Source: Clostridia bacterium (GTDB lineage Bacteria; Bacillota; Clostridia; Oscillospirales; CAG-272). From it: a stretch of 33,728 nucleotides of DNA. Numbering within the stretch: the first letter of the stretch is position 1; every line of letters starts with the position of its first letter. Of this stretch, positions 7,534 through 33,644 are shown one piece after another. The DNA is taken from assembly GCA_017463445.1 (NCBI GenBank), contig JAFTPF010000008.1:1-33728 (forward strand). The letters run 5' to 3'. The translations under genes were made by a program, and so were the position numbers. The notes beneath the pieces are model-generated. The model searched no databases and was not told where the DNA came from. It saw only the letters and a list, made by a program, of their open reading frames with translations.

Positions 7534-7564
7534 AACCAACCTGCTGCAAGGCGGGTTGGTTTTT
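7534..7564 (+). terminator. Terminator of the membrane-protein operon
   Basis: A 12-pair stem (7534-7545 with 7550-7561, including two G-U pairs), GCAA loop and TTTTT at 7560-7564. Confidence 0.9.
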
Positions 7565-7603
7565 CTTCAGTTTTCCGATTCGCGCCCAAATATTCACACT
7601 TTG

Positions 7604-7635
7604 TTCACAAAATCTCGTTGGTTGTGTGCTATAAT
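7604..7635 (+). promoter_or_regulatory. Extended -10 promoter of the cotH-like gene
   Basis: TATAAT (7630-7635) preceded by TG and one base (TGCTATAAT), the extended -10 form. The best upstream box, TTCACA (7604-7609), is 20 bases away, longer than optimal, so the promoter probably relies on the extended -10. Confidence 0.7.
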
Positions 7636-7669
7636 AAACAAAAACGATTCTCTATTGGGAGATTTATTT

Positions 7670-9169
7670 GTGAAACGATTCTTGATTGTCCTGCTGGCGG
7701 CAACCGCCTGTCTGGTGGGATGCAGCCGTCAAACTCCGCCCAATACGACTTCGTCTTCGCCAAGCGATCAAACCGATCACACAACCTCCATCACACCCGA
7801 GACCACCACCGTTCCCGATGATCTGAGCGCGCTGTTTGAGCCTGCCCTTCGTGAAGACGATAACTATACCGTAGGCACCTTTACCGCAGACGGCAGTTAT
7901 CTCACCGGCAATTACGCCACGGTGGACGGGGCTACCGTGCAAAAATACCCCCGCCTGACCAATCTGGCGACGCTTTACATCAACTTTCCCGACCGGAAAG
8001 ATCTGTCCTCCGTACAGCACGGCGTATACACGGATGCTACCTACTCCTTCGTGGATCAGTATGTGGAAGACAGCTATTACGAGCTTCCTCTGCAGATCAA
8101 GGGGCGCGGTAACTACTCCTGGACCTTTGCCCAGAAGCCCTACTCCCTGAAGCTGGGCGAAAAAGCCGACCTTCTCGGCATGGGTGCCGCGAAAAAGTGG
8201 ACGCTGATCACCGTGTCCAGCGACCATACCATGATGCACAACTATCTGACGCAGAAGATGGCGGCGGCAATGGGTCTGCGCGGCACCTGCGAAAATGAGT
8301 ACGTGGATGTGGTGGTCAACGGCGAATACGCCGGCACCTGGGTGCTGACCGAAAGGATCCAGATCCACGCGGAGCGCATCGATGTCCCCGACGAGATCGG
8401 CGTGCTTTTTGAGATCGAGATGGTCTACCGCCATACCTGCGACACCTGCATCGTCCTCTATGAGGATCCACATAACCGTCAAAATACGGTTCATCTGTGT
8501 CTGAAGACCTACAAGGGCGTTGATCTGGAGGATATGGACGACCGCGCCAAAGAAGCCGCACTTGCCGATCTGCAGCCCTTCTTCAACGATCTATCCAATG
8601 CCTTTACCCGCGAAAAAACGCTGGACGCCATTTCTAAGTATATCGACGTGGATTCCTTCGTCAACTGGTATCTGCTCAACGAGCTGACCCGCAATTACGA
8701 CTCCCAATTCGTCACCAGCTGTTACTGCTACATAGACGAGACCGGGCGGCTGTATATGGGTCCCGTATGGGATTTTGACACCTGCTATGGTACGCAGGAT
8801 CCTCAGATCGACGGCTATCGCGTGAAGAACGCGCCCTGGTTTACCCAACTCTTCGAATGCCAAGCATTCGTCCGTCTGGTCTGCGAGCGCTGGACCGAGC
8901 TTCGGAACAACGGTCTGATCGATGCGTTTTGCGCCTCTATCGACCGAACGGCAGAACGGATCGCCGCTTCGGAGCAGTTAAATCACGCGCTGTATCCGCA
9001 TAGTGAGCTGGGCTCCAGCGACTTTCACGAAGCCGTGGAGTATTTCAAAAACTGGCTGGATCAGCGGATCGTATGGATGGACGCCCAGTTCCTTCTGATC
9101 GACGGCGACGCACCCGCGATTCCTTCCCAAACGACCGCGGCCACCACCACCCGCCGTCCGCGCGGGTAA
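7670..9169 (+). CDS. CotH-kinase-family lipoprotein
   Basis: 499 residues from a GTG start with GGGAGA (7657-7662) seven bases upstream; this start gives a clean lipoprotein signal (KRFLIVLLAATACLVGC, lipobox Cys18) followed by a Ser/Thr/Pro linker. The rest matches the CotH family: LPLQIKGRGNYSWTFAQKPY, then LLGMGAAKKWTLI, then VNGEYAGTWVLTERI, and the conserved acidic active-site block MGPVWDFDTCYG near residues 360-370. Family members include the spore coat protein kinase CotH of Bacillus and many secreted proteins in clostridial and cellulolytic bacteria. Because it carries a lipobox, it probably sits on the outer face of the membrane, not in the spore coat. The next gene follows after 27 bases and is probably co-transcribed. 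Confidence 0.85.
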   Translation: MKRFLIVLLAATACLVGCSRQTPPNTTSSSPSDQTDHTTSITPETTTVPDDLSALFEPALREDDNYTVGTFTADGSYLTGNYATVDGATVQKYPRLTNLATLYINFPDRKDLSSVQHGVYTDATYSFVDQYVEDSYYELPLQIKGRGNYSWTFAQKPYSLKLGEKADLLGMGAAKKWTLITVSSDHTMMHNYLTQKMAAAMGLRGTCENEYVDVVVNGEYAGTWVLTERIQIHAERIDVPDEIGVLFEIEMVYRHTCDTCIVLYEDPHNRQNTVHLCLKTYKGVDLEDMDDRAKEAALADLQPFFNDLSNAFTREKTLDAISKYIDVDSFVNWYLLNELTRNYDSQFVTSCYCYIDETGRLYMGPVWDFDTCYGTQDPQIDGYRVKNAPWFTQLFECQAFVRLVCERWTELRNNGLIDAFCASIDRTAERIAASEQLNHALYPHSELGSSDFHEAVEYFKNWLDQRIVWMDAQFLLIDGDAPAIPSQTTAATTTRRPRG

Positions 9170-11796: not shown

Positions 11797-12348
11797 ATGG
11801 ATAACGGTGAAAGTAGCTACCGCCGATATCTGACCGGTGACGAGTCCGCATTCGAAGAAATACTGGAGCTTTATAAGGATAATCTGATCTTTTTCCTCTG
11901 CCGCTACGTGGAAAGCGTCGCCATCGCAGAGGAGATCGCCGCCGACTGCTTTGCCCTGCTGATCACAAAGCCGGACAAGTACGATTTCTCGGTGTCGCTC
12001 AAAACCTGGCTCTTTACCGTGGGACGCAACCGCGCCCTTGACTACCTGCGCCGCAAAAACCGCTGGCGGATCCATCCGCTGGAGGAAGCCGTCGCCCTGC
12101 CCGGGAGCCAGGAGGACGATCCCGAAGCCCTCTTTCTGAAGAAGGAGCGGGAGCGTCAGCTCCATCGATCGATGGGTCGGCTAAAGCCCGACTATCGGGC
12201 GGCGCTGCACCTGGTCTACTTCGAGGAATTATCCTACGAAGAGGCGGGGCGTGTCCTGCAGAAGAGCAAAAAGCAGATCGAAAATTTGGTTTACCGAGGA
12301 AAGAATGCACTCCGAACCGATTTGGAAAAGGAGGGGTTTGAATTTTGA
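11797..12348 (+). CDS. ECF-type RNA polymerase sigma factor
   Basis: 183 residues, AAAGGAG RBS. Region 2 spans ~15-90: FEEILELYKDNLIFFLCRYV, then IAEEIAADCFALL and LKTWLFTVGRNRALDYLRRK, the -10 recognition helix. Region 4 spans ~120-178: LKPDYRAALHLVYFEELSYE, then EAGRVLQKSKKQIENLVYRG, the helix-turn-helix for the -35 element. No region 1.1 or 3, as usual for ECF factors. The stop overlaps the TTG start of the next gene (TTGA), indicating coupling with a membrane protein placed where anti-sigma factors normally are. Confidence 0.95.
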   Translation: MDNGESSYRRYLTGDESAFEEILELYKDNLIFFLCRYVESVAIAEEIAADCFALLITKPDKYDFSVSLKTWLFTVGRNRALDYLRRKNRWRIHPLEEAVALPGSQEDDPEALFLKKERERQLHRSMGRLKPDYRAALHLVYFEELSYEEAGRVLQKSKKQIENLVYRGKNALRTDLEKEGFEF

Positions 12349-13247
12349 GAAGCAAAGAAGAATTTAAAGCGCTGGTGGAGGAGCGTGCCGCCGCACAGAG
12401 AAAAGCGGCGATCGCCGCCGCACGCCGACGGAAGATGATCCTGTCGGGCGCCATCCCGCTGGTGCTGATTATTGCAATCGCACTGCCCGCGATCGGGCTG
12501 TTCACGCTGCCCGCAGGCATGGCGGAGGATGGAAACGCTACGATGGCAGGGAACAACGGTGCCGAGAACCGTTGTCCCCTCGCCGACGAAACGGCACCGA
12601 ACGGAACCTCTCCCGAATTCGTCTATCCGAATTACGACGGGGCGGGCGATGATGCGGTCGATAATGAGGACTATGATCCCTCAAAGCCGACTCCTGATCT
12701 GACAGGGGCAACCGGCGGGATGGCTCCGCCTCCCGAGGAAACCGAGCCCGATCTTATGCCGCCGCCCTCCTACAGTCCATCTGACCCATACGCCGACATC
12801 ACCGCTGATTCCCCCGCGGACTTGCTCAGCGAGCTGCGCAAAGATACCGGCGGTTTGTCCGAGGAATCGGTCGCTCTGCTGACCGCGCTCCTCCCAAGCG
12901 ACCTTCTGACCCTTCCCGACGGCAGAGCTCCCTTTTGCGCTCTGTATCATCTGCACGATGGCTATTTTATGCTGAAGCTGACCTGGTCGGGTGAGAACGC
13001 CTTCCGCTACACCTTGCTGTTTGATGATACGCCCTTCTTCACCGAGGAATGGCTACAGGAGAATTATCAGCCCGTAGAGGCAGAGATCCCTCTCTACCGC
13101 CATCCGTCGGCGGACAATGAATTTTACCGCGCCTGCCTTTCCAATCTTCTGCTGGCAGAGATCGAATTTTCCAAAGATCACACCGACATCACCGCCACCC
13201 TCACCCATCTGATCGAGCTTTGCAAAGAGTTCTGTGTCGCACCGTAG
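12345..13247 (+). CDS. Putative membrane-bound anti-sigma factor
   Basis: 300 residues from a TTG start overlapping the sigma-factor stop; AAGGAGG at 12328-12334 supports this start. Layout: a ~30-residue charged cytoplasmic helix (KEEFKALVEERAAAQRKAA), one membrane segment at ~31-53, an acidic Pro/Asp/Glu-rich external linker (~58-145), and an external domain (~145-300) with four Cys over the whole exterior. Position and coupling argue for control of the ECF sigma factor. The cytoplasmic part is much shorter than the usual ~70-residue anti-sigma domain and shows no zinc-binding HxxxCxxC motif, so the assignment is by context only. The long disordered exterior could be a protease target. Confidence 0.6.
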   Translation: MRSKEEFKALVEERAAAQRKAAIAAARRRKMILSGAIPLVLIIAIALPAIGLFTLPAGMAEDGNATMAGNNGAENRCPLADETAPNGTSPEFVYPNYDGAGDDAVDNEDYDPSKPTPDLTGATGGMAPPPEETEPDLMPPPSYSPSDPYADITADSPADLLSELRKDTGGLSEESVALLTALLPSDLLTLPDGRAPFCALYHLHDGYFMLKLTWSGENAFRYTLLFDDTPFFTEEWLQENYQPVEAEIPLYRHPSADNEFYRACLSNLLLAEIEFSKDHTDITATLTHLIELCKEFCVAP

Positions 13248-13272
13248 ATCCGTGTGCAGAAAGGAGCTTCCT

Positions 13273-14574
13273 ATGAAACGAATCCTATCTATGCTGCTTT
13301 CGATCTGTCTGCTGCTGCCTCTGATCGCCGCTTGCGGCCAAGATGCCGCGGACAGCCCGACAACCAACACTACCACCACCGATCCCACGCCGGACGGCAA
13401 GATCGAAGCGGTCAACCTGATGGCGGATGTCACCGCCAACCAAGTCGCCGACCGCGAGCCTGACGACGCCTTCAAAACCGCTTACGCCGATTTTGCGGCA
13501 AAGCTGCTGACCGGCTCCGCCGCTTTGGAGCGGGAGGAGAATCTGCTGATCTCCCCGCTCTCTGCAATGCTGGCGCTTGCCATGACCGCGAATGGTGCCG
13601 AAGATGAGACCCTGGCAGAAATGCAAACGCTCTTGGGCGGCACGCTCTCCATGGAAGAACTAAACGGTATGCTCCGCACATGGGTAGCGTCCATGGCGAC
13701 CCGCAAATACGTCACGCTCTCCGCCGCCAACTCCATTTGGTTCAAGGAGAAACGCTTCATTCCCGATCCTGCTTTCCTGCAGACAAACGCCGACTATTTC
13801 GGCGCGGACGTCTACGCCGCACCCTTCAGCGATCAGACCGTGAAAGATGTGAATCTGTGGATCGAAGAGAAGACCAACGGTCTCATCAAAGAGATGCTGA
13901 ACGGGCTGGATCCCGAAACGGTGATGCTCTTGATCAACACGCTCTATTTCCAAGCGGAATGGAACGACCCTTACCAGGACGGACAGTTGGAGGACGGTAC
14001 CTTCCACGGCGTAAATGGAGACGAAACCGTTCAGATGATGCGCTCCGTGGAATCCACCTACCTCTCTATGGAGGGCGCGCAGGGCTTCAAGAAGTATTAC
14101 AAGGGCGGATTCTATTTTGCGGCTCTTCTGCCCGATGAAGGCACCGACATTGCCGATTTCGTCGCTTCGCTCACCGGAGAAAAGCTGACGGCTGCACTAA
14201 GCAGCGGATCCCGCGCGGACGTATACGCTAAACTCCCTGCCTTCAGCTACGACTGCGATCTGTCGCTGAAGGAGGTGCTGGCACCGCACATCCCCGACGC
14301 GTTCACGCCTTTCGAAGCGGATTTCTCGGGCATGGGCACCACCGACAACGGCGATCCCCTTTTTATCAGCAAGGTTCTGCAAAAGACCAACATCACGCTG
14401 GACAAGAACGGAACAACCGCCGCCGCGGCTACCGTAGTGGTGATGAACGGCGCGACCGGTATGCCCGAGGAGCTGCCCGTCTACCACATCACCCTCGACC
14501 GTCCCTTTGTCTATGTGATCACCGACAGCTACACCGGTCTTCCGATCTTCATCGGCGTGGTGGAACAGCTCTGA
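13273..14574 (+). CDS. Serpin (serine protease inhibitor) lipoprotein
   Basis: 433 residues from ATG 13273 (AAGGAG at 13261-13266). The signal MKRILSMLLSICLLLPLIAAC gives lipidated Cys21, then a Thr-rich linker. The serpin fold is clear: NLLISPLSAMLALAMTANGA, then AANSIWFKEKRFIP, VNLWIEEKTNGLIKEML, LLINTLYFQAEW, and the C-terminal LDRPFVYVITDSYTGLPIF. The reactive-centre hinge NGTTAAAATV (379-388) has the small residues required for loop insertion, so it should be inhibitory. Counting from P15 Gly380 puts P1-P1' at about Ala394-Thr395; a small P1 suggests elastase-like targets. Serpins of the gut species Eubacterium siraeum (siropins) are a precedent. It is the last gene of the ECF operon, 25 bases after the putative anti-sigma gene. 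Confidence 0.93.
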   Translation: MKRILSMLLSICLLLPLIAACGQDAADSPTTNTTTTDPTPDGKIEAVNLMADVTANQVADREPDDAFKTAYADFAAKLLTGSAALEREENLLISPLSAMLALAMTANGAEDETLAEMQTLLGGTLSMEELNGMLRTWVASMATRKYVTLSAANSIWFKEKRFIPDPAFLQTNADYFGADVYAAPFSDQTVKDVNLWIEEKTNGLIKEMLNGLDPETVMLLINTLYFQAEWNDPYQDGQLEDGTFHGVNGDETVQMMRSVESTYLSMEGAQGFKKYYKGGFYFAALLPDEGTDIADFVASLTGEKLTAALSSGSRADVYAKLPAFSYDCDLSLKEVLAPHIPDAFTPFEADFSGMGTTDNGDPLFISKVLQKTNITLDKNGTTAAAATVVVMNGATGMPEELPVYHITLDRPFVYVITDSYTGLPIFIGVVEQL

Positions 14575-23559: not shown

Positions 23560-24783
23560 ATGAAAAAAGAAGACATCAAAAAAGTAGTGCTCGCCTATTC
23601 CGGCGGTCTGGATACATCCATCATCATTCCGTGGCTGAAGGAAAACTACAACAACTGCGAGGTCATCGCAGTCTCCGCTGACGTAGGTCAGGGCACCGAG
23701 CTGGACGGTCTGGAAGAAAAGGCCATCAAGACCGGCGCTTCCAAGCTCTACGTGCTGGATCTGAAGAAGGAGTTCATCGAGGACTTCATCTACCCCACTA
23801 TGCAGGCAGGCGCCGTTTACGAGGGCGACTATCTGCTGGGTACTTCCTTTGCCCGTCCCATCATCGCCCAGAAGATCGTTGAGATCGCTCTTGCAGAAGG
23901 CGCCGACGCCATTGCCCACGGTTGCACCGGCAAGGGCAACGACCAGGTTCGGTTTGAGCTGACCATCAAGGCCTTCGCGCCCGAAATGGCAATCATCGCT
24001 CCTTGGCGTGAGTGGACCATCAAGTCCCGCGAGGAAGAGATCGAGTACGCCGAGGCGCACAACATCCCTCTGAAGATCAACCGTGAGACCAACTACTCCA
24101 AGGACAAGAACCTGTGGCACCTGTCCCACGAGGGTCTGGATCTGGAGGATCCCGCTAACGAGCCTCAGTACAACAAGCCCGGCTTCCTGGAACTGGGCGT
24201 CTCTCCCGAGCAGGCACCCGACACTCCCACCTACGTTACCCTGTCCTTTGAGAAAGGCGTTCCCACCGCCATCAACGGCGAGGCGATGGACGCCGTTACC
24301 CTGATCGAGACCCTGAACAAGCTGGGCGGCGAAAACGGCATCGGTATCACCGATCTGGTAGAAAACCGTCTGGTAGGCATGAAGTCCCGCGGCGTTTACG
24401 AGACTCCCGGCGGAACCATCCTCTACCGCGCGCACAAGGTTCTGGAGACCATCACCCTCGACCGTGACACCCAGCACTACAAGGAGCTGGTTGCCAACAA
24501 GTACGCCGAGCTGGTCTACAACGGTCTGTGGTTCACTCCTCTTCGCGAGGCACTGGCCGCATTCGTGACCTCCACTCAGCAGAACGTCACCGGCGAGGTG
24601 AAGCTGAAGCTCTACAAGGGCAACCTGATCAACGCAGGCGTAACCTCTCCCAACTCCCTTTACAGCGAAGAGGTTGCAACCTTCGACGAGGATAACGTCT
24701 ACAACCAGGCTGACGCTACCGGCTTCATCAACCTGTTCGGTCTGCCTCTGCAGGTTCAGGCAAATCTGAAGAAAAAGAATTAA
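23560..24783 (+). CDS. argG: Argininosuccinate synthase
   Basis: 407 residues, the normal length. CGGAGG RBS. The N-type ATP pyrophosphatase P-loop AYSGGLDTS is at 12-20; [31 protein letters not shown] and the C-terminal [20 protein letters not shown] are diagnostic. It joins citrulline and aspartate using ATP (to AMP and PPi) to form argininosuccinate. First gene of the arginine cluster, directly under P2 and the ARG box. Codon bias indicates strong expression. Confidence 0.97.
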
Positions 24784-24905: not shown

Positions 24906-24955
24906 TCCAAAATAGTCCTTTTGCGTGCCAAATTACGCGAAAGGACAGTTTTGGG
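24906..24955. ncRNA. Long structured hairpin between argG and argH
   Basis: Outer stem TCCAAAA/TTTTGGG (24906-24912 with 24949-24955), a 2x2 internal loop, inner 12-pair stem (24915-24926 with 24935-24946, one G-U) and an 8-base loop GCCAAATT. About 19 pairs in 50 bases. No T-run follows. It could be an RNA-processing site, a small RNA or a mobile hairpin relic; the class is unknown. Confidence 0.45.
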
Positions 24956-24996
24956 ATATTGACCTAATTTCGAAACACACTCATTTTTATCTATTT

Positions 24997-25069
24997 CCCC
25001 AAAAAGTTTTTGAAGTCCAGAAACTTTTTTTAAAAAGTTTCTGGCAGGATCCAAGGACAGAGCCCTTGG
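24997..25069 (-). repeat. Dispersed two-hairpin repeat, copy C (reversed)
   Basis: Read on the minus strand: hairpin 1 CCAAGG..CCTTGG (25069-25051), spacer, hairpin 2 with stem CCAGAAACTTTTT (25044-25017), tail ACTTCAAAAACTTTTT. It ends two bases before the argH RBS and forms an inverted pair with copy B. Confidence 0.85.
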
Positions 25070-25083
25070 TTGGAGACAAATTC

Positions 25084-26463
25084 ATGGCAGAAAAGATGTG
25101 GGCGGGACGGTCCGCCGGTGTCACCGATCAGGTGGCAGATGATTTCAATACTTCTCTTCCCTTCGATCAGCGGATGTACCGTCAGGACATCACCGGCAGT
25201 ATGGCGCACGCGACCATGCTGGCGGCGAAGGGGATCCTTCCTCCAAGCGACGTAGACACCATCATTGACGGTCTGTCGGGGATCCTTGCGGATCTGGACA
25301 GCGGAAAGCTGGATTTTTCCGCAGGCGGCGAGGACATTCATATGTTTATCGAGTCGGAGCTCACCGCCAGAATCGGCGATCTGGGCAAGAAGCTCCACAC
25401 CGCCCGTAGCCGCAACGACCAGGTCGCACTGGACCTGCGGCTCTATCTGCGGGATGAGGTAAAGTCCATCTCCGACCTGATCAGAGATGTGATCGACGCT
25501 CTGCTACTGCAGGCCGAAGCATACGCCGATGCGATCATGCCGGGCTACACCCACCTGCAGAGAGCACAACCCATCACCTTCGGCCATCATCTCATGGCGT
25601 ATGTGCAGATGCTTCTGCGGGATCTCGACCGCCTGTCCGATGCGGCAGGACGGATGAACATATCTCCCCTCGGCTCCTGCGCACTGGCAGGCACCACCTA
25701 TCCCACCGACCGTCAGATGGTCGCCGACATTCTGCAGATGAACGGCATCTGCGAAAACTCGCTGGACGGCGTGTCCGACCGCGATTACTGCATCGAGCTG
25801 CAGGCCGCGTTCGCTACGATCATGATGCACCTCTCGCGGCTGTCCGAGGAGATCATCCTCTGGACCTCCTGGGAATTCCGCTTCGTAGAGCTGTCCGACG
25901 CCTACTCCACCGGCTCGTCCATTATGCCACAGAAGAAGAACTCCGATATGGCGGAGCTGGTACGGGGCAAGACCGGCAGAGTCTACGGCAATCTGATGGG
26001 CACACTCACCATGCTGAAGGGTCTTCCTCTCGCCTACAACAAGGATATGCAGGAGGACAAGGAAGCCATCTTCGACAGCGTAGACACCCTGAAAATGTCG
26101 CTGGCGGTGTTCGCTCCCATGGTGGCGACTATGCGTCCGCTCCCCGAAAATATGCGGGCGGCGGCGGCAAAGGGGTTCATCAACGCCACCGACTGCGCCG
26201 ATTATCTCACCAAAAAGGGGATGCCCTTCCGCACCGCCTACAAGATCACGGGTGCGCTGGTGGCAGACTGCATCCGCGACGGGCTGACCTTGGAAACGCT
26301 CCCCATCGAGCGCTACAAAGCCGCGTCCGAGCTGTTCGAAGCCGACATTTACGACGAGATCAGCATGGAGACCTGCGTGATGCGCAGAACCTCCGCAGGA
26401 GGCACCTCCGTTGACTCGGTGAGAGCGCAGATCGCATCGGTAAAAGCAAAACTGGGCGAATAA
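25084..26463 (+). CDS. argH: Argininosuccinate lyase
   Basis: 459 residues. ATG 25084 is chosen because AEKMWAGR is the standard ArgH start and TGGAG (25071-25075) lies eight bases upstream; an in-frame extension would translate the repeat. Superfamily blocks present: HTARSRNDQVALDLRLYLRD, PGYTHLQRAQPITFGHHLM, and the mobile catalytic loop TGSSIMPQKKNSD with catalytic Ser near 278-279; Ser replaces the usual Pro after KKN. It splits argininosuccinate into arginine and fumarate. Confidence 0.97.
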   Translation: MAEKMWAGRSAGVTDQVADDFNTSLPFDQRMYRQDITGSMAHATMLAAKGILPPSDVDTIIDGLSGILADLDSGKLDFSAGGEDIHMFIESELTARIGDLGKKLHTARSRNDQVALDLRLYLRDEVKSISDLIRDVIDALLLQAEAYADAIMPGYTHLQRAQPITFGHHLMAYVQMLLRDLDRLSDAAGRMNISPLGSCALAGTTYPTDRQMVADILQMNGICENSLDGVSDRDYCIELQAAFATIMMHLSRLSEEIILWTSWEFRFVELSDAYSTGSSIMPQKKNSDMAELVRGKTGRVYGNLMGTLTMLKGLPLAYNKDMQEDKEAIFDSVDTLKMSLAVFAPMVATMRPLPENMRAAAAKGFINATDCADYLTKKGMPFRTAYKITGALVADCIRDGLTLETLPIERYKAASELFEADIYDEISMETCVMRRTSAGGTSVDSVRAQIASVKAKLGE

Positions 26464-26583: not shown

Positions 26584-26598
26584 AGGAGATTCAAAATC

Positions 26599-27450
26599 AT
26601 GGAAATTACAAATGCACAGCGGGCGGAAGTGCTGGTCAAGGCACTTCCCTACATACAGAAATACACCGGTAAGGTGGTAGTCATCAAGTACGGCGGAAAC
26701 GCTATGATCAACGAGGAGCTGAAATCTGCCGTTATGGGCGATCTGGCACTCCTTTCGCTGATCGGCGTCAAGATCGTGCTGGTTCACGGCGGCGGTCCCG
26801 AGATCTCCGAGACTATGAAGAAAATGGGCAAGGAGAGCGTCTTCGTGGACGGACTACGTGTCACCGACCGTGAGACTGCCGAGATCGTGCAGATGGTGCT
26901 GTCGGGCAAGATCAACAAGTCGCTGGTCAACCTCTTAAACAACGCCGATTGCCGTGCCATCGGTCTTTCGGGCGCCGACGACGGTCTTATTGAGGCGGTT
27001 CAGAAGGACCCCCGTCTCGGTTATGTGGGCGAGATCACCAAGGTCAATCCCCAGATCATCCACGATCTCTTGGACAAAGGCTACATCCCCGTCATCTCTA
27101 CCGTGGGCTACGACAAGGCGGGCAACATCTACAACATCAACGCCGACACTGCCGCCGCACGCATTGCGGGTGCGCTGAAGGCGGAAGCCCTCTTCTCCAT
27201 GACCGACATCGCGGGCATTCTCCGCGATAAGGACGATCCCACATCGCTGATCCACAAGATCTACGTCTCGGACGCTCCTGCACTGATGCGGGACGGTATC
27301 ATCTCGGGCGGCATGATCCCCAAGGTGGACTGCTGTGTGGAAGCCATCCGCCGCGGCGTGAAGCGGGTCTTCATCATCGACGGACGCGTTCCCCACTCCA
27401 TCCTCATCGAGGCTCTTACCGACGAGGGTATCGGCACCATGTTCCTGTAA
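26599..27450 (+). CDS. argB: N-acetylglutamate kinase
   Basis: 283 residues. ATG 26599 with GAGGAG (26583-26588); an upstream in-frame extension would read through repeat D. It has an N-terminal helix before the kinase core (AEVLVKALPYIQKYTGK), as in hexameric, arginine-inhibited kinases of the Pseudomonas/Thermotoga type. VIKYGGNAM (Lys for ATP), VHGGGPEI, and TDIAGIL follow. It phosphorylates N-acetylglutamate, the second step of ornithine synthesis. argC, argJ and argD are absent from the window. Confidence 0.97.
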   Translation: MEITNAQRAEVLVKALPYIQKYTGKVVVIKYGGNAMINEELKSAVMGDLALLSLIGVKIVLVHGGGPEISETMKKMGKESVFVDGLRVTDRETAEIVQMVLSGKINKSLVNLLNNADCRAIGLSGADDGLIEAVQKDPRLGYVGEITKVNPQIIHDLLDKGYIPVISTVGYDKAGNIYNINADTAAARIAGALKAEALFSMTDIAGILRDKDDPTSLIHKIYVSDAPALMRDGIISGGMIPKVDCCVEAIRRGVKRVFIIDGRVPHSILIEALTDEGIGTMFL

Positions 27451-27495: not shown

Positions 27496-28425
27496 ATGAA
27501 GCATTTGCTCAAACTGATGGATCTCTCCGAAAAGGAGATCCTGGGTCTGCTGAATACTGCGGACCAACTCAAATACGAAAAGCACAACGGCATCGAGCAT
27601 CATCACCTGAAGGGCAAGACTCTGGGTATGATCTTCTCTAAGTCGTCCACCCGTACCCGTGTCTCCTTTGAGGTAGGTATGTACGACCTGGGCGGTCAGG
27701 CACTCTTCCTCTCCTCCGCTCACACCCAGATCGGCAGAGGCGAGCCTGTGGAAGACACCGCCCGCGTGCTCTCCCGTTATCTGGACGGCATCATGATCCG
27801 CACCTTCGATCAGGAGGAAGTGGAGAATCTGGCAAAATACGGCTCTATTCCGATCATCAACGGTCTGACCGACTACTGTCATCCCTGTCAGGTGCTGGCT
27901 GACCTGATGACCATCCGCGAACACAAGGGCGCACTTGCCGGCAACAAGCTGGTATTCGTGGGCGACGGCAACAATATGGCAAATTCCCTCATCGTCGGCG
28001 GTATCAAGACCGGCATGGAGGTGACAGTTGCCTGCCCCAAGACCCATCAGCCCGATCCCGAGATCATGCAGTGGGCTGCCGAGAACGGCAAGTTCACCTG
28101 CACCGACGATATTCTGGAAGCCTGCAAGGATGCCGACGTACTTTACACTGACGTGTGGGCATCCATGGGTCAGGAGGAGGAAGCCGCAGAGCGGAAAAAG
28201 ATCTTCGCGGGCTATCAGATCAACAGTGAGGTCATGGCGGTAGCCCATCCCGATGCGATGGTGCTCCACTGTCTGCCTGCGCATCGCGGCGAGGAGATCA
28301 CCGCTGAGGTGATGGAAGCCCACGCCGACGAAATCTTCGACGAGGCAGAAAACCGTCTCCACGCTCAGAAGGCAGTTCTGGTCAAGCTGATGGGCGGCGA
28401 CGCCCCCCAAAGTGACCGCGACTGA
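27496..28425 (+). CDS. argF: Ornithine carbamoyltransferase
   Basis: 309 residues, GTGAGG RBS. Carbamoyl-phosphate loop SSTRTR (50-55), HPCQ (129-132), and ornithine-site HCLPAHR (258-264). VFVGDGNNMANSL marks the second domain. It makes citrulline from ornithine and carbamoyl phosphate, the product of the next two genes. The anabolic role is inferred from the biosynthetic context; an ArcB-type catabolic role would need arcA and arcC, which are absent. Confidence 0.96.
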   Translation: MKHLLKLMDLSEKEILGLLNTADQLKYEKHNGIEHHHLKGKTLGMIFSKSSTRTRVSFEVGMYDLGGQALFLSSAHTQIGRGEPVEDTARVLSRYLDGIMIRTFDQEEVENLAKYGSIPIINGLTDYCHPCQVLADLMTIREHKGALAGNKLVFVGDGNNMANSLIVGGIKTGMEVTVACPKTHQPDPEIMQWAAENGKFTCTDDILEACKDADVLYTDVWASMGQEEEAAERKKIFAGYQINSEVMAVAHPDAMVLHCLPAHRGEEITAEVMEAHADEIFDEAENRLHAQKAVLVKLMGGDAPQSDRD

Positions 28426-28521: not shown

Positions 28522-29598
28522 ATGAAAAAAGCATATTTGGTACTTGAAAACGGAAAAGTGTTCGAAGGTGTACGCTTCGGTGCGGACGCTTCGGTCACCG
28601 GTGAGCTGGTCTTCACCACCGGCGTGGTGGGCTATCTGGAGAATCTGACCGATCCAAACTATTACGGTCAGATCGTGCTTCAGACCTTCCCTCTCATCGG
28701 TAACTACGGCGTCATTGAGGAGGATATCCCCGAAAAAGCCTGGGCTGCGGGCTATGTCGTCCGTGAATGGTGCGACACCCCCTCCAATTTCCGTTCGCAG
28801 TACGATCTGGATAAATATCTGAAAGATCAGGGTATCCCCGGCATCTTTGGCATCGACACCCGCGAGGTCACCCGTACCATCCGTGAGTGCGGCGTGATGA
28901 CGGCGATGATCTGCGACGAGGTCCCCGCCGATCTGTCCGCCCTTGCCGCGTACGAGATCAAGGACGCCGCCGCGGCGGTCACCCCCGACGAGAGCGCAAC
29001 TCTTCCTGCGGCAGGCGAGGAGCTATGCCGCGTGACAATAATCAGCTACGGCTCCTGCGCGCACATCGCAGACGCGCTGATGGCCAAGGGTGCTACCGTG
29101 ACCGTCCTGCCCTTCACCGCTACTGCAGAGGACGTGCTGGCAACCGCTCCCGACGGCATCGTGCTGTCGGAAGGCCCCGGCGATCCCCGTGAGAACGCAG
29201 CCTCCATCGAAACGGTGAAGGCACTGATCGGCAAGGCTCCCATCTTCGGCGTGGGAATGGGTCATCAGATCCTGGCGCTGGCCATGGGCGGCAAGTGCGA
29301 GAAGATGCACCACGGTCACCGCGGCGGAAATCAGCCCGTGAAGGATCTCACCGGTACCCGCACCTATATGACCACCCAAAATCACGGTTATACCGTTTTG
29401 GCTGATTCGGTGAACGCTACCGAGATCTACCGCAACGTCAACGACGGCACCTGCGAAGGTCTGTGCTACTATCCCGCCGTCCCCGCACAGTCGGTGCAGT
29501 TTACCCCCGTCTACGGGAACGGTCCTCACGATACCTCCTTCCTCTATACTAATTTCATCAATACTGTGATCAAATTCAAGAAAGCAGGTGAGTGCTGA
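28522..29598 (+). CDS. carA: Carbamoyl-phosphate synthase small subunit, glutaminase triad lost
   Basis: 358 residues, usual ~355-385; GGAG RBS. The N-terminal CPSase small-chain domain (~1-150; AYLVLENGKVFEGVRFG, LTDPNYYGQIVLQTFPLIGN) and a class I glutamine amidotransferase fold (~165-355; VLSEGPGDP, GGNQPVKD, TQNHGY) are both present. The nucleophile elbow reads FGVGMGHQ where FGICLGHQ is canonical, so the catalytic Cys (E. coli Cys269) is Gly245. The GHPEASPGPHD block reads FTPVYGNGPHD, so His353 and Glu355 are Thr328 and Val330. The subunit cannot be expected to hydrolyse glutamine; it probably supports a large subunit using free ammonia. The stop overlaps the carB ATG by one base. Confidence 0.93.
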   Translation: MKKAYLVLENGKVFEGVRFGADASVTGELVFTTGVVGYLENLTDPNYYGQIVLQTFPLIGNYGVIEEDIPEKAWAAGYVVREWCDTPSNFRSQYDLDKYLKDQGIPGIFGIDTREVTRTIRECGVMTAMICDEVPADLSALAAYEIKDAAAAVTPDESATLPAAGEELCRVTIISYGSCAHIADALMAKGATVTVLPFTATAEDVLATAPDGIVLSEGPGDPRENAASIETVKALIGKAPIFGVGMGHQILALAMGGKCEKMHHGHRGGNQPVKDLTGTRTYMTTQNHGYTVLADSVNATEIYRNVNDGTCEGLCYYPAVPAQSVQFTPVYGNGPHDTSFLYTNFINTVIKFKKAGEC

Positions 29599-32500
29599 TG
29601 CCCCGCGATAACGCTATTCAAAAGGTTCTTGTGATCGGCTCCGGTCCTATCGTCATCGGACAGGCTGCCGAATTCGACTACGCAGGCGCTCAGGCTTGCC
29701 GTGTACTGAAAAAAGCAGGCGTAAACGTAGTGCTGGTCAACTCCAACCCCGCTACCATCATGACCGACAAGGCACTGGCAGACGAGATCTATCTGGAGCC
29801 CCTGAACGTTGACACCATCAAACGCATCATCGAGAAGGAGCGTCCCGACTCCATCCTTGCAGGTCTTGGCGGTCAGACCGGCCTGACCATCGCCATGCAG
29901 CTGGCCAAGGACGGCTATCTGGAAAAGATGGGCGTGCGCCTCTTGGGCACCGACGCCAACTCCATCACCCGTGCCGAGGACCGTGAGCTCTTTAAGGAAG
30001 CTATGGAGGAGATCGGTCAGCCCCTGATCCCCTCGGACATCGCCGAGGATATGGACACCGCCATCGCGGTCGCCAACCGCATCGGTTATCCCGTTATCAT
30101 CCGTCCCGCGTTTACTTTGGGCGGCTCGGGCGGCGGCGTTGCTTACAACGAAGAAGAACTGCGGGTCGTTGCCCGCACCGGTCTGGATCTGTCGCCCATT
30201 ACCCAGATCCTGGTCGAAAAATATATCTACGGCTGGAAAGAGATCGAGTTTGAGACCATGCGCGATGCCGCAGGCAACGCTATCGTCATCTGCTCCATGG
30301 AAAACTTCGACCCCGTCGGCATCCACACCGGCGACTCCATCGTGGTCGCGCCCGCATTTACTCTCTCCCCCAAGGAATACGAGATGCTCCGTGCGGCTTC
30401 CCTCTCCATCGTGTCCTCGCTGGGCATCGTGGGCGGCTGTAACTGCCAGTTTGCGCTGAACCCCGAATCCTTCGAGTATGCGGTCATCGAGGTCAACCCC
30501 CGCGTATCCCGTTCCTCCGCGCTGGCGTCCAAGGCAACCGGCTATCCCATCGCCAAGGTGACCACTCAGATCGCTCTGGGCTATACCCTGGACGAGATCA
30601 AGAACGAGGTCACCGGCACCACTTTTGCTTGCTTCGAGCCTACCGTTGACTACTGCGTAGTCAAGTTCCCCAAGTGGCCCTTCGATAAGTTCGGCGGCAA
30701 GTCCCGTAAGCTGGGCACCCAGATGAAGGCTACCGGCGAGGTCATGGCAATCGCTCCCTCCTTTGAGATGGCGATCATGAAGGCCGTCCGCGGTGCCGAG
30801 ATCTCTCTGGACACCCTGAACAAAGCACCTCTGGACGACACTCCCGTTGAGGAGCGCCTGAAAAATCTGGACGACCTGCGCCTCTTCACCGTATTCGAGG
30901 CGATCAAGAAGGGCGTTTCCCTTGACACCATCAACAAGATCACCCGCATCGACAAGTGGTTCCTGAACAAGCTGAAGAAGCTTGCCGATTACGAAACGAA
31001 GCTGGCGGCAGAAGGTCTGACCGACGAGAATTACCTTGCCGGCAAGACCTACGGGTATCCCGACAAGGCAATCGCCCGCATCGCAGGCGCCAAGGAGATT
31101 CCTGCCGATATGCACCGTGCGGCCTCCTACAAGATGGTAGACACCTGCGGCGCAGAATTTGCGGCAGAGACCCCCTACTTCTACTCCTCCTATGACGAGG
31201 CGTGCGAGGCAAGAGAGCTGCTCGCCACCACCAAGAAGGAGCGTGTCATCGTGCTGGGCTCCGGTCCCATCCGCATCGGTCAGGGCATTGAGTTCGACTA
31301 CTCCTCGGTTCATTGCGTATGGACTCTGCAAGAGCTGGGCTACGAAGTCGCCATCATCAACAACAACCCCGAGACCGTTTCTACCGACTACGACACCGCA
31401 GACCGTCTGTACTTCGAGCCGCTGACTCCCGAGGACGTGATGAACGTCATCGAGATCGAGAAGCCTGTCGGCGTGGTAGTAGCATTCGGCGGTCAGACCG
31501 CCATCAAGTTGACCAGCTTCCTGGATGCAAACGGCATCAAGATTCTGGGCACCTCCGCAGAGGGCATTGACACCGCCGAGGACCGCGAAAAGTTCGACGC
31601 TCTGCTGGAGAGATTTGGCATCCGCCGTCCCAAGGGACGTGCCGTGCTGACGCTGGACGAGGCACTGGAAGCCGCAGAGGGTCTGGGCTATCCCGTACTC
31701 CTCCGCCCCTCCTACGTGATCGGCGGTCAGAACATGATCATCGCTCACGTTCCCGCAGACGTGGAGAAATATATGAATGTCATCCTGGCGGGCGGTATTG
31801 AGAACCCTGTTCTGGTGGACAAGTATATGATGGGTCCCGAGCTGGAGGTAGACGTGATCTCCGACGGCAAGGACGTCCTCATCCCCGGTATCATGCAGCA
31901 CGTGGAGCGTGCCGGCGTACACTCGGGCGACTCCATTGCGGTCTATCCTCCCTACAACATCACCGACAAGATGAAGCAGACCATCATTGACTGCTCCACC
32001 AATCTGGCGCTGGAGCTGGGCACCAAGGGTCTGGTCAACATCCAGTACCTGATCTATCACGGTGAGCTCTACGTCATCGAGGTGAATCCCCGCGCTTCCC
32101 GTACCATCCCCTATATCAGCAAGGTTACCGGCGTTCCCATGGTAGACATCGCCTCCCGCGTCATGATCGGCGAGCCGCTGGCTGACATGGGCTACGGCAC
32201 CGGTCTGTATAAAGCTCCGCCCTACGTTACCGTTAAGGCACCCGTCTTCTCCTTTGAGAAGCTGTCCGACGTAAACTCCTCTCTGGGTCCGGAAATGAAG
32301 TCCACCGGCGAGGTTCTTGGCATCGGCAAGACCATGACCGAGGCACTCTACAAGGGTCTGACCGCGGCAGGCTTCAAGCTGGCTGCTCCCTTCGGCGGAA
32401 ACGAAGTCGGCATCCTCCTGTCGGTAGTGGATCACGATCTGTTTGAGGTAGTTACCCTTGCCAAGAAGCTGGACGATCTGGGTATGAAGCTCTACGCCAC

Positions 32501-33644
32501 CGCAGACACGGCAGACGCCATCTCCAGCCTGGGCATCGACGTGACCGTAGTGAACAGCATCGCTCCCGGCGGCGACGCCTTCGAGCTGATGGAAGCGGGC
32601 AAACTGAACTATATCGTTTACACCGGTGCGCTGTACGACTCCACCATCGAGGAGTTCATCACCCTGCACCGCCGTGCGGTACAGCTCTCCATCGCCTGCC
32701 TGACCTCTCTGGACACGGCAAACGCCATGGCGGACATCATCTCCTCCCGCTACAATCTCTACAACACCGAGCTGGTGGACATCAACGATATGCGCGCTAC
32801 CCGCCGCAAGCTGGTCTTCCACAAGATGACCGCCACCGGCAACGACTATATCTATATCGACAACTTCGACGGCTCCATCACCTGCCCCGAGTCTCTGGCT
32901 GTCACCTACTGTGACCGACACTACGGCATCGGCGGCGACGGTATCGTGCTGATCGAGAAGTCCAATGTAGCAACCGCTAAGATGCGGATCTTCAACCAGG
33001 ACGGCTCCGAGGGTAAGATGGGCGGCAACGCGCTCCGTTGCGTAGGCAAGTTCCTCTACGACAACGGCTACACCACTCACACCCACATCACCGTAGAGAC
33101 CGCCAGCGGCGTCAAGTGGATGAAGCTCTTCGTCTCCGACGGCAAGGTGACCTCGGTCACCATCCGCATGGGCAAGGCTTCGCTGAAGGCGTCCGATCTG
33201 CCCGTTGCCATCGACAAGGAGACGGTCATCGACCATCCCGTGGAAATTGGCGGCGAGAACTACAACATCACCTGCGTATCGGTGGGCAACCCCCACTGCG
33301 TAGTCTTTGCCCCTCGCGTGGACGGCGTAGAAGTGGACAAGATCGGGCCTCTCTTCGAGCATTCTCCTCTCTTCCCCGAGCGTGTGAACACCGAATTCAT
33401 CCGCGTGGTGAATCCCGTGACCATCAAGATGCGCGTCTGGGAGCGCGGTAACGGCGAGACCCTCGCCTGCGGTACCGGCGCCTGTGCGGCCGTGGTTGCC
33501 GCCGTGGAAAACGGCTTCTGCAAGAAGGGCGAGGACGTCACCGTCAAGGTCAAGGGCGGCGACCTCATCGTCAACTACACCGACGACGGCATCACCCTCC
33601 CCGGCAACGCCGACCTCGTCTACAAGGGCGAGCTGGAGTATTGA
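29598..33644 (+). CDS. carB: Carbamoyl-phosphate synthase large subunit fused to a diaminopimelate epimerase domain
   Basis: 1348 residues in one open frame. ATG 29598 overlaps the carA stop (TGATG); AGGTGAG lies five bases upstream. Residues 1-~1065 are a complete CarB: two ATP-grasp halves ([40 protein letters not shown]), [20 protein letters not shown], and a C-terminal allosteric MGS-like domain (~930-1060). After the linker RATRR, residues ~1070-1348 are a full-length DapF fold: [47 protein letters not shown], and [16 protein letters not shown] with catalytic Cys1291. The first catalytic Cys (Cys73 of H. influenzae DapF) is Gly1142. CarB makes carbamoyl phosphate from bicarbonate, 2 ATP and ammonia; DapF interconverts LL- and meso-diaminopimelate. 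Confidence 0.95.
   Translation: [1348 protein letters not shown]

Follow-up and report, generated by a model that had tools for sequence, protein, structure and literature searches.

The closest solved relative of the enzyme described here is the carbamoyl-phosphate synthase (CPS) of Escherichia coli, CarAB (CPS II; structures 1t36 and 1bxr), which uses glutamine. A review gives Cys-269 and His-353 as essential for glutamine hydrolysis by this enzyme and extends glutamine dependence to all bacterial CPSases (PMC6245113). A paper on human CPS1 states that every CPS type except CPS1 uses glutamine (PMC4655335). Vertebrate CPS1 (human structures 5dot and 6uel) has kept its class I glutamine amidotransferase (GATase) domain and lost the catalytic Cys, as has the CarA reported below. 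The same text describes replacement of this Cys by Ser294 in human CPS1, external ammonia as the donor, and a blocked ancestral tunnel for which an alternative external path is proposed. Blocking or perforating the tunnel in E. coli left the variant enzymes active with external ammonia (PMC4655335).

Direct ammonia use has also been described in other bacterial settings. Bacterial NAD synthetases of the single-domain kind have no glutaminase domain and amidate with ammonia in vivo (PMC3376133). In that family the single-domain form most likely came first and acquired the glutaminase afterwards, whereas in CarA the glutaminase has been lost repeatedly and stays as a subunit. For Blochmannia vafer, which lacks glutamine synthetase, free ammonia was suggested as a possible CPS donor (PMC3017870); in the portion of that report available, the suggestion rests on ordinary ammonia use by CPS, not on loss of CarA residues. 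Our search of titles and abstract openings in the open literature turned up no account of a bacterial CarA that had lost its triad naturally, which is weak evidence of novelty because most subscription journals lay outside the search.

The window, as we call the whole stretch of 33,728 nucleotides analysed here, is one entire contig (C93) of a 147-contig, 2.4 Mb, 99.5% complete assembly (G000) of a Clostridia bacterium. Its arginine genes run argG-argH-argB-argF upstream of carA, with a carB-dapF fusion downstream (Table 1). The fusion starts at 29592 or 29598 and overlaps the end of carA; the ATG at 29598 is likelier, with TGATG over the carA stop. The paired carA and carB are separate ORFs, and GATase and synthetase do not lie in one chain. 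Searches of the assembly returned one CarA, one CarB and one ornithine carbamoyltransferase, and no aspartate carbamoyltransferase was found in it. Judging from this gene content, the enzyme appears to supply arginine alone; a second role in pyrimidine synthesis was rejected, as the assembly yielded no aspartate carbamoyltransferase.

Table 1. Positions of the arginine genes, the replaced residues and other residues discussed in the text.
Feature	Position	Strand	Remark
argG, argininosuccinate synthase	23560..24783	+	
argH, argininosuccinate lyase	24925..26463	+	
argB, acetylglutamate kinase	26596..27450	+	ORF from 26518 if a TTG start is used
argF, ornithine carbamoyltransferase, carbamoyl phosphate consumer	27496..28425	+	Sole PF02729 match in the assembly
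carA, CPS small subunit, triad replaced (G245, T328, V330)	28522..29598	+	From ORF, TIGR01368 and alignments
CarA Asn46, E. coli S47 position	28657..28659	+	Ser in 66/67 live arg-type CarA
CarA Cys179, E. coli K202 position	29056..29058	+	Lys in 67/67 live arg-type CarA
CarA Glu217, E. coli N240 position	29170..29172	+	Asn in 66/67 live arg-type CarA
CarA Gly245 codon GGA, catalytic Cys position	29254..29256	+	
CarA Thr328 codon ACC, catalytic His position	29503..29505	+	
CarA Val330 codon GTC, catalytic Glu position	29509..29511	+	
carB-dapF in-frame fusion	29592..33644	+	CarB residues 3-1053, DapF 1075-1349
CarB E264 to R267, E. coli CarB Q262 to R265 equivalents	30381..30392	+	

The 358-aa CarA contains the Pfam domains CPSase_sm_chain and GATase and scores 354.7 bits against TIGR01368, above the curated cut-off of 307.35. 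It matches E. coli CarA with 221.7 bits and human CPS1 with 161.6 bits; the corresponding values for CarB are 1012 and 780.8 bits. The nucleophile elbow of the window CarA reads FGVGMGHQ and its His/Glu block FTPVYGNGPHD, and in the alignment Gly245, Thr328 and Val330 occupy the Cys, His and Glu columns, so that the triad of the TIGR01368 family is missing. Of the 115 Cys-bearing CarA rows that were read, 113 have C/H/E in these columns and two have C/H/D. The Gly245 column corresponds to E. coli Cys269 by counting along the aligned 1t36 chain; the Thr328 and Val330 columns we take to be those of H353 and E355, Glu355 presumably being the third triad residue. Rubino reportedly described an E. 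coli Cys269-to-Gly mutant in 1986, which would be the laboratory counterpart of the window enzyme.

By sequence, the protein is thus a member of the CarA family without that family's catalytic feature, its GATase domain lacking the catalytic Cys as in ammonia-dependent CPS I. An earlier note on this DNA had claimed replacement of all three triad residues, and both ORF reading and alignment bear this out. Two of the checks it proposed were run with the expected outcome: the same G/T/V combination is present in two congeneric genomes (G001 and G003; 90 and 88% identity to the window CarA), and no second carA, live (Cys-bearing) or otherwise, was found in the 99.5% complete window assembly. Two further members of the genus (G002 and G004) are without the window-type copy and carry another CarA, 40-41% identical, with an intact triad.

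We consider it probable that the window encodes an arginine-linked CPS that draws NH3 from outside, is unable to hydrolyse glutamine and keeps CarA as a structural subunit. Glutamine hydrolysis would have been lost at CarA, with free ammonia becoming the nitrogen donor for carbamoyl phosphate. Ammonia from solution would probably enter downstream of the dead site, pass the conserved CarB gate and meet carboxyphosphate; CarA would persist under constraint as a folded partner of CarB while its glutamine pocket, and perhaps also part of the path from the pocket into CarB, decays. The enzyme is expected to function in the manner of CPS I but, with its subunits separate, does not belong to that class: CPS1 is one N-acetylglutamate-activated chain of 1500 residues, whereas the window encodes CarA on its own, joins carB to dapF and has none of the three triad residues left.

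Three pairs within the window genus gave carA dN/dS values of 0.090, 0.129 and 0.096, indicating purifying selection, against the background of 0.057 for carB (one pair measured) and 0.049-0.091 for argF. The proposal that CarA is retained as a constrained subunit agrees with this range of 0.09-0.13 in the window clade. The carA/carB ratio of dN/dS was 2.3-4.9 in nine of ten Cys-less pairs (0.2 in the tenth, a nearly identical pair) versus 0.6-2.2 in eight live pairs, counts that leave out the pair L078/L079, which has no dS, and gene entries with stops. Cys-less CarA is therefore relaxed but far from neutral, since the ratio is raised yet carA dN/dS remains low. It is unlikely that CarA is instead a decaying passenger and that CarB works alone with NH3, an account in which the ammonia step is the same and the role of CarA differs. 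The raised ratio is consistent with such a passenger, as is the title of a 1987 paper by Rubino, according to which the E. coli large subunit carries out synthesis from NH3 in vivo, but a dN/dS of about 0.1 denotes strong constraint, and Cys-less ORFs keep a length of about 330-370 aa, except for one cut by a contig edge.

The decay is concentrated in the glutaminase domain of CarA. In arg-type CarA, Cys-less rows (n = 44) exceeded live rows (n = 105) in mean entropy: 1.45 against 1.34 for the N domain, and 1.76 against 1.31 for the GATase domain. When the comparison was confined to rows with a complete CarB (40 Cys-less, and 40 subsampled from 67 live), the N domain changed from 1.25 to 1.58 and the GATase domain from 1.18 to 1.83, and the entropy of the CarB domains changed by at most 0.08. 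Apart from five positions, CarB is nearly unrelaxed.

The window CarB is a whole-protein match to TIGR01369 (1373.6 bits). Its ammonia gate, placed by alignment with 6uel at positions equivalent to Cys648, Ala667 and Ala729 of human CPS1, which the CPS1 paper names as gate residues (PMC4655335), reads C/A/A in all 40 CarB beside Cys-less CarA, the window included. A gate kept in this way would also suit a separate glutaminase or ammonia-producing enzyme that docks on or near CarB and makes the CPS indirectly glutamine- or amino-acid-driven, and several amidotransferases are generally known to use separate glutaminase subunits. We regard this arrangement as rather improbable: a search of the assembly for class I GATases (PF00117) returned four matches, namely CarA, a TrpG-like protein, HisH and a PEP-utilising fusion, and no candidate was present among the arg genes read. 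HisH has Cys, His and Glu all in place, and the TrpG-like protein, located at a contig edge, keeps its Cys; glutamine is therefore probably still used elsewhere in this genome.

Three further CarA positions have changed alongside the triad. Where E. coli has S47, K202 and N240, the window CarA has N46, C179 and E217, and these positions vary in Cys-less CarA generally, so that the description of the protein as otherwise intact was too strong. We take S47 to belong to the glutamine site and K202 of CarA to line the ammonia tunnel. The QNH, GHxG and QF residues stay conserved in Cys-less CarA. This conservation would be expected if CarA had become a sensor that binds glutamine or another metabolite without hydrolysis and regulates CarB; the variation at the S47, K202 and N240 equivalents argues against such a sensor, which we hold to be very improbable.

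On the CarB side, 346 positions are invariant beside live CarA, and five of these (264, 267, 348, 927 and 1003) vary beside Cys-less CarA. With shuffled labels, the mean number of such positions was 0.08 and the maximum 2 in 100 shuffles, which is not a p-value because shuffling ignores relatedness. By alignment, positions 264, 267 and 348 correspond to E. coli Q262, R265 and F348, and R265 is presumably a tunnel-wall residue. Gln264 is present in 67 of 67 live arg-type rows versus 15 of 40 Cys-less rows. Human CPS1 retains Gln, Arg and Phe at the three equivalents, so an enzyme can use ammonia without change at these sites. Human CPS1 accordingly does not support such change as a mark of ammonia-using CPS in general.

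The DapF part of the fusion scores 270.9 bits against TIGR00652, above the cut-off, and represents a full diaminopimelate epimerase with GNALRC and ACGTG, which we take to be the two catalytic-Cys motifs of that enzyme. A CarB-DapF fusion was present in 82 of 106 full-length arg-like CarB of relatives. It was rejected as a cause of triad loss, being found beside 52 of 67 live and 30 of 39 Cys-less arg-like copies. No paper describing this fusion was found in the literature search.

The distribution of Cys-less CarA was assessed in 394 genomes drawn evenly from the order, using a family scan, a rescan of 60 chosen genomes and direct reading. A CarA or CarA paralog without the Cys was carried by at least 60 genomes: 51 yielded only such copies, and nine combined one with a live CarA, the Cys-less copy of G059 being an odd paralog. 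Among the remainder, 220 were classed as live, 11 were not verified and 103 had no CarA. The Cys-less count is a lower bound, because second copies were read in a minority of live genomes. Live status was mostly assigned by score, with 34 Cys-bearing rows read from genomes counted live, and some live calls near 1.0e-123 may be wrong, since a Cys-less copy in G030 scored 1.0e-123. In total, Cys-less CarA was found in 62 genomes and three further named contigs. A degenerate DNA motif for the Gly form matched 19 of the 394 genomes, 17 times in CarA and twice in unrelated DNA; the same motif read backwards matched one genome, which argues against chance.

In a 187-row alignment, the catalytic Cys of the 72 Cys-less rows was replaced by Gly in 59, Ser in seven, Asp in three, Ala in two and Arg in one. 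A CarA tree built without the catalytic columns (and without L107, which has a broken frame, L236, at a contig edge, and L098, from the same contig as L063) required at least 21 changes by parsimony, and the single independent event proposed earlier is therefore not borne out. When midpoint-rooted, the tree contained 22 all-Cys-less clades, several of them weakly supported. The branch uniting the window genus with four other Cys-less rows has a support of only 22, so the loss in the window may be a separate event.

Among the best 80 of 595 named contigs, Cys-less CarA was present in four (L098, a contig of G181; L115; L125; and L167), and L107 belongs to the same 80. L167 is Ruminococcus sp. 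FC2018, a named strain record without a MAG label. The window lies on one contig of a 147-contig assembly, but an assembly or binning artefact has negligible probability and sequencing error, doubted already in the earlier note, is rejected: G/T/V recurs in two congeners (88-90% identical), no Cys, His or Glu codon can turn into the respective window codon (GGA, ACC, GTC) by fewer than two base changes, and the FC2018 record also has a Cys-less CarA. The ammonia-rich gut niche suggested earlier as a possibility would accord with the sources of several named relatives, which come from gut and rumen.

Several unusual copies were observed in the course of this survey. One Cys-less clade includes CarA-like paralogs without an adjoining carB match. 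Five Cys-less CarA-like ORFs of family f2 (L237, L238, L239, L240 and L265) constitute an unexplained paralog; no carB match was present in the stretch fetched around each of L237-L240, and in L237, L238, L240 and L265 Gly fills the Cys column and Cys the Glu column, with a PCSD motif common to all four. In G361 and G388, a Cys-less CarA (L054, L055) stands beside a CarB about 60-70 residues short (ORFs of 992 and 999 aa), and both genomes additionally carry a live CarA (L188, L187). The arg-operon CarA of L080 (G025, contig C7) is very degraded, with S/C/R at the triad and an altered nucleophile loop and NHG block; it still precedes a CarB-DapF, whose CarB is only 44-45% identical to that of the window.

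The CarA state was associated with the state of two other glutamine-using steps. In the first 12 genomes searched, matches to CTP synthase (PyrG, PF06418) were confined to the two congeners whose CarA is live. Across the sample, PyrG was absent from 49 of 51 Cys-less-only genomes (exceptions G211 and G423) versus 29 of 229 genomes with a live copy (Fisher's test, 1e-31). GMP synthetase (GuaA) was scored as glutaminase-less in 34 of 39 detected in Cys-less-only genomes versus 16 of 205 in genomes with a live copy (Fisher's test, 4e-24), a comparison that leaves out intermediate scores and genomes without a match and in which some truncated calls may be contig ends. The Cys-less-only exceptions with full-length GuaA were G125, G138, G267, G298 and G311. 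In seven of the Cys-less genomes, G036, G095, G021, G074, G006, G017 and G001, GMP synthetase consists of the ATP-pyrophosphatase part with no GATase before it, and the copy of G001 (L277), from the window's genus, lies inside its contig. The GuaA match in the window assembly itself is cut by the contig start, and no match was found in G003, which is 72% complete.

In 11 hand-picked genera with both kinds of CarA, PyrG differed in the expected direction in ten and tied in one; GuaA did so in eight genera, was mixed in one, tied in another and had no data in the last. The eight include one genus that depends on G000, where the contig start cuts GuaA. For seven independent pairs on supported branches of the CarA gene tree, PyrG changed in the same direction in 5.2 and the opposite in 0.0 (median p = 0.06), and GuaA in 6.3 and 0.1 (median p = 0.03). 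PyrG was also missing in 79 of 103 genomes without any CarA, and for this reason the association may reflect a broad loss of nucleotide synthesis instead of a direct link.

The wider proposal, to which we give about even weight, is that many gut and rumen Clostridia lineages independently dropped glutamine as donor for carbamoyl phosphate and GMP. The enzymes would have been kept with their glutaminases disabled or deleted, CTP synthase often lost and the CarA-to-CarB path eroding in parallel; the turn to direct ammonia use would be genome-wide and have happened repeatedly. Should NH3 prove to be the substrate of these enzymes, the two statements of universal glutamine use (PMC6245113, PMC4655335) would no longer hold for a large group of gut bacteria, and some 20 natural replicates would be available for finding which tunnel and coupling residues matter. 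Dependence on ambient ammonia and resistance to glutamine analogues at these steps would be predicted, and direct ammonia use would become a genome-readable trait through the joint state of CarA, GuaA and PyrG.

Some minor observations were made in the same genomes. CTP synthase (PF06418) was not found in 158 of the 394 order genomes, of which 103 are among the 315 with at least 90% completeness and at most 5% contamination. GMP synthetases without a GATase domain were read at L257-L263, and in G078 (L255/L276) a shortened, eroded GATase remnant lies at the GMP synthetase N-terminus, an apparent intermediate of erosion. Contig C111 of the window assembly (L176) has a long ORF that combines a PEP-utilising-enzyme-like part, recognised by eye, with a class I GATase showing apparent C/H/E. 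In the window itself, a CotH kinase-like ORF is located at 7556-9169 and a serpin (PF00079, 260.8 bits) at 13234-14574, near an ECF-type sigma factor at 11797-12348.
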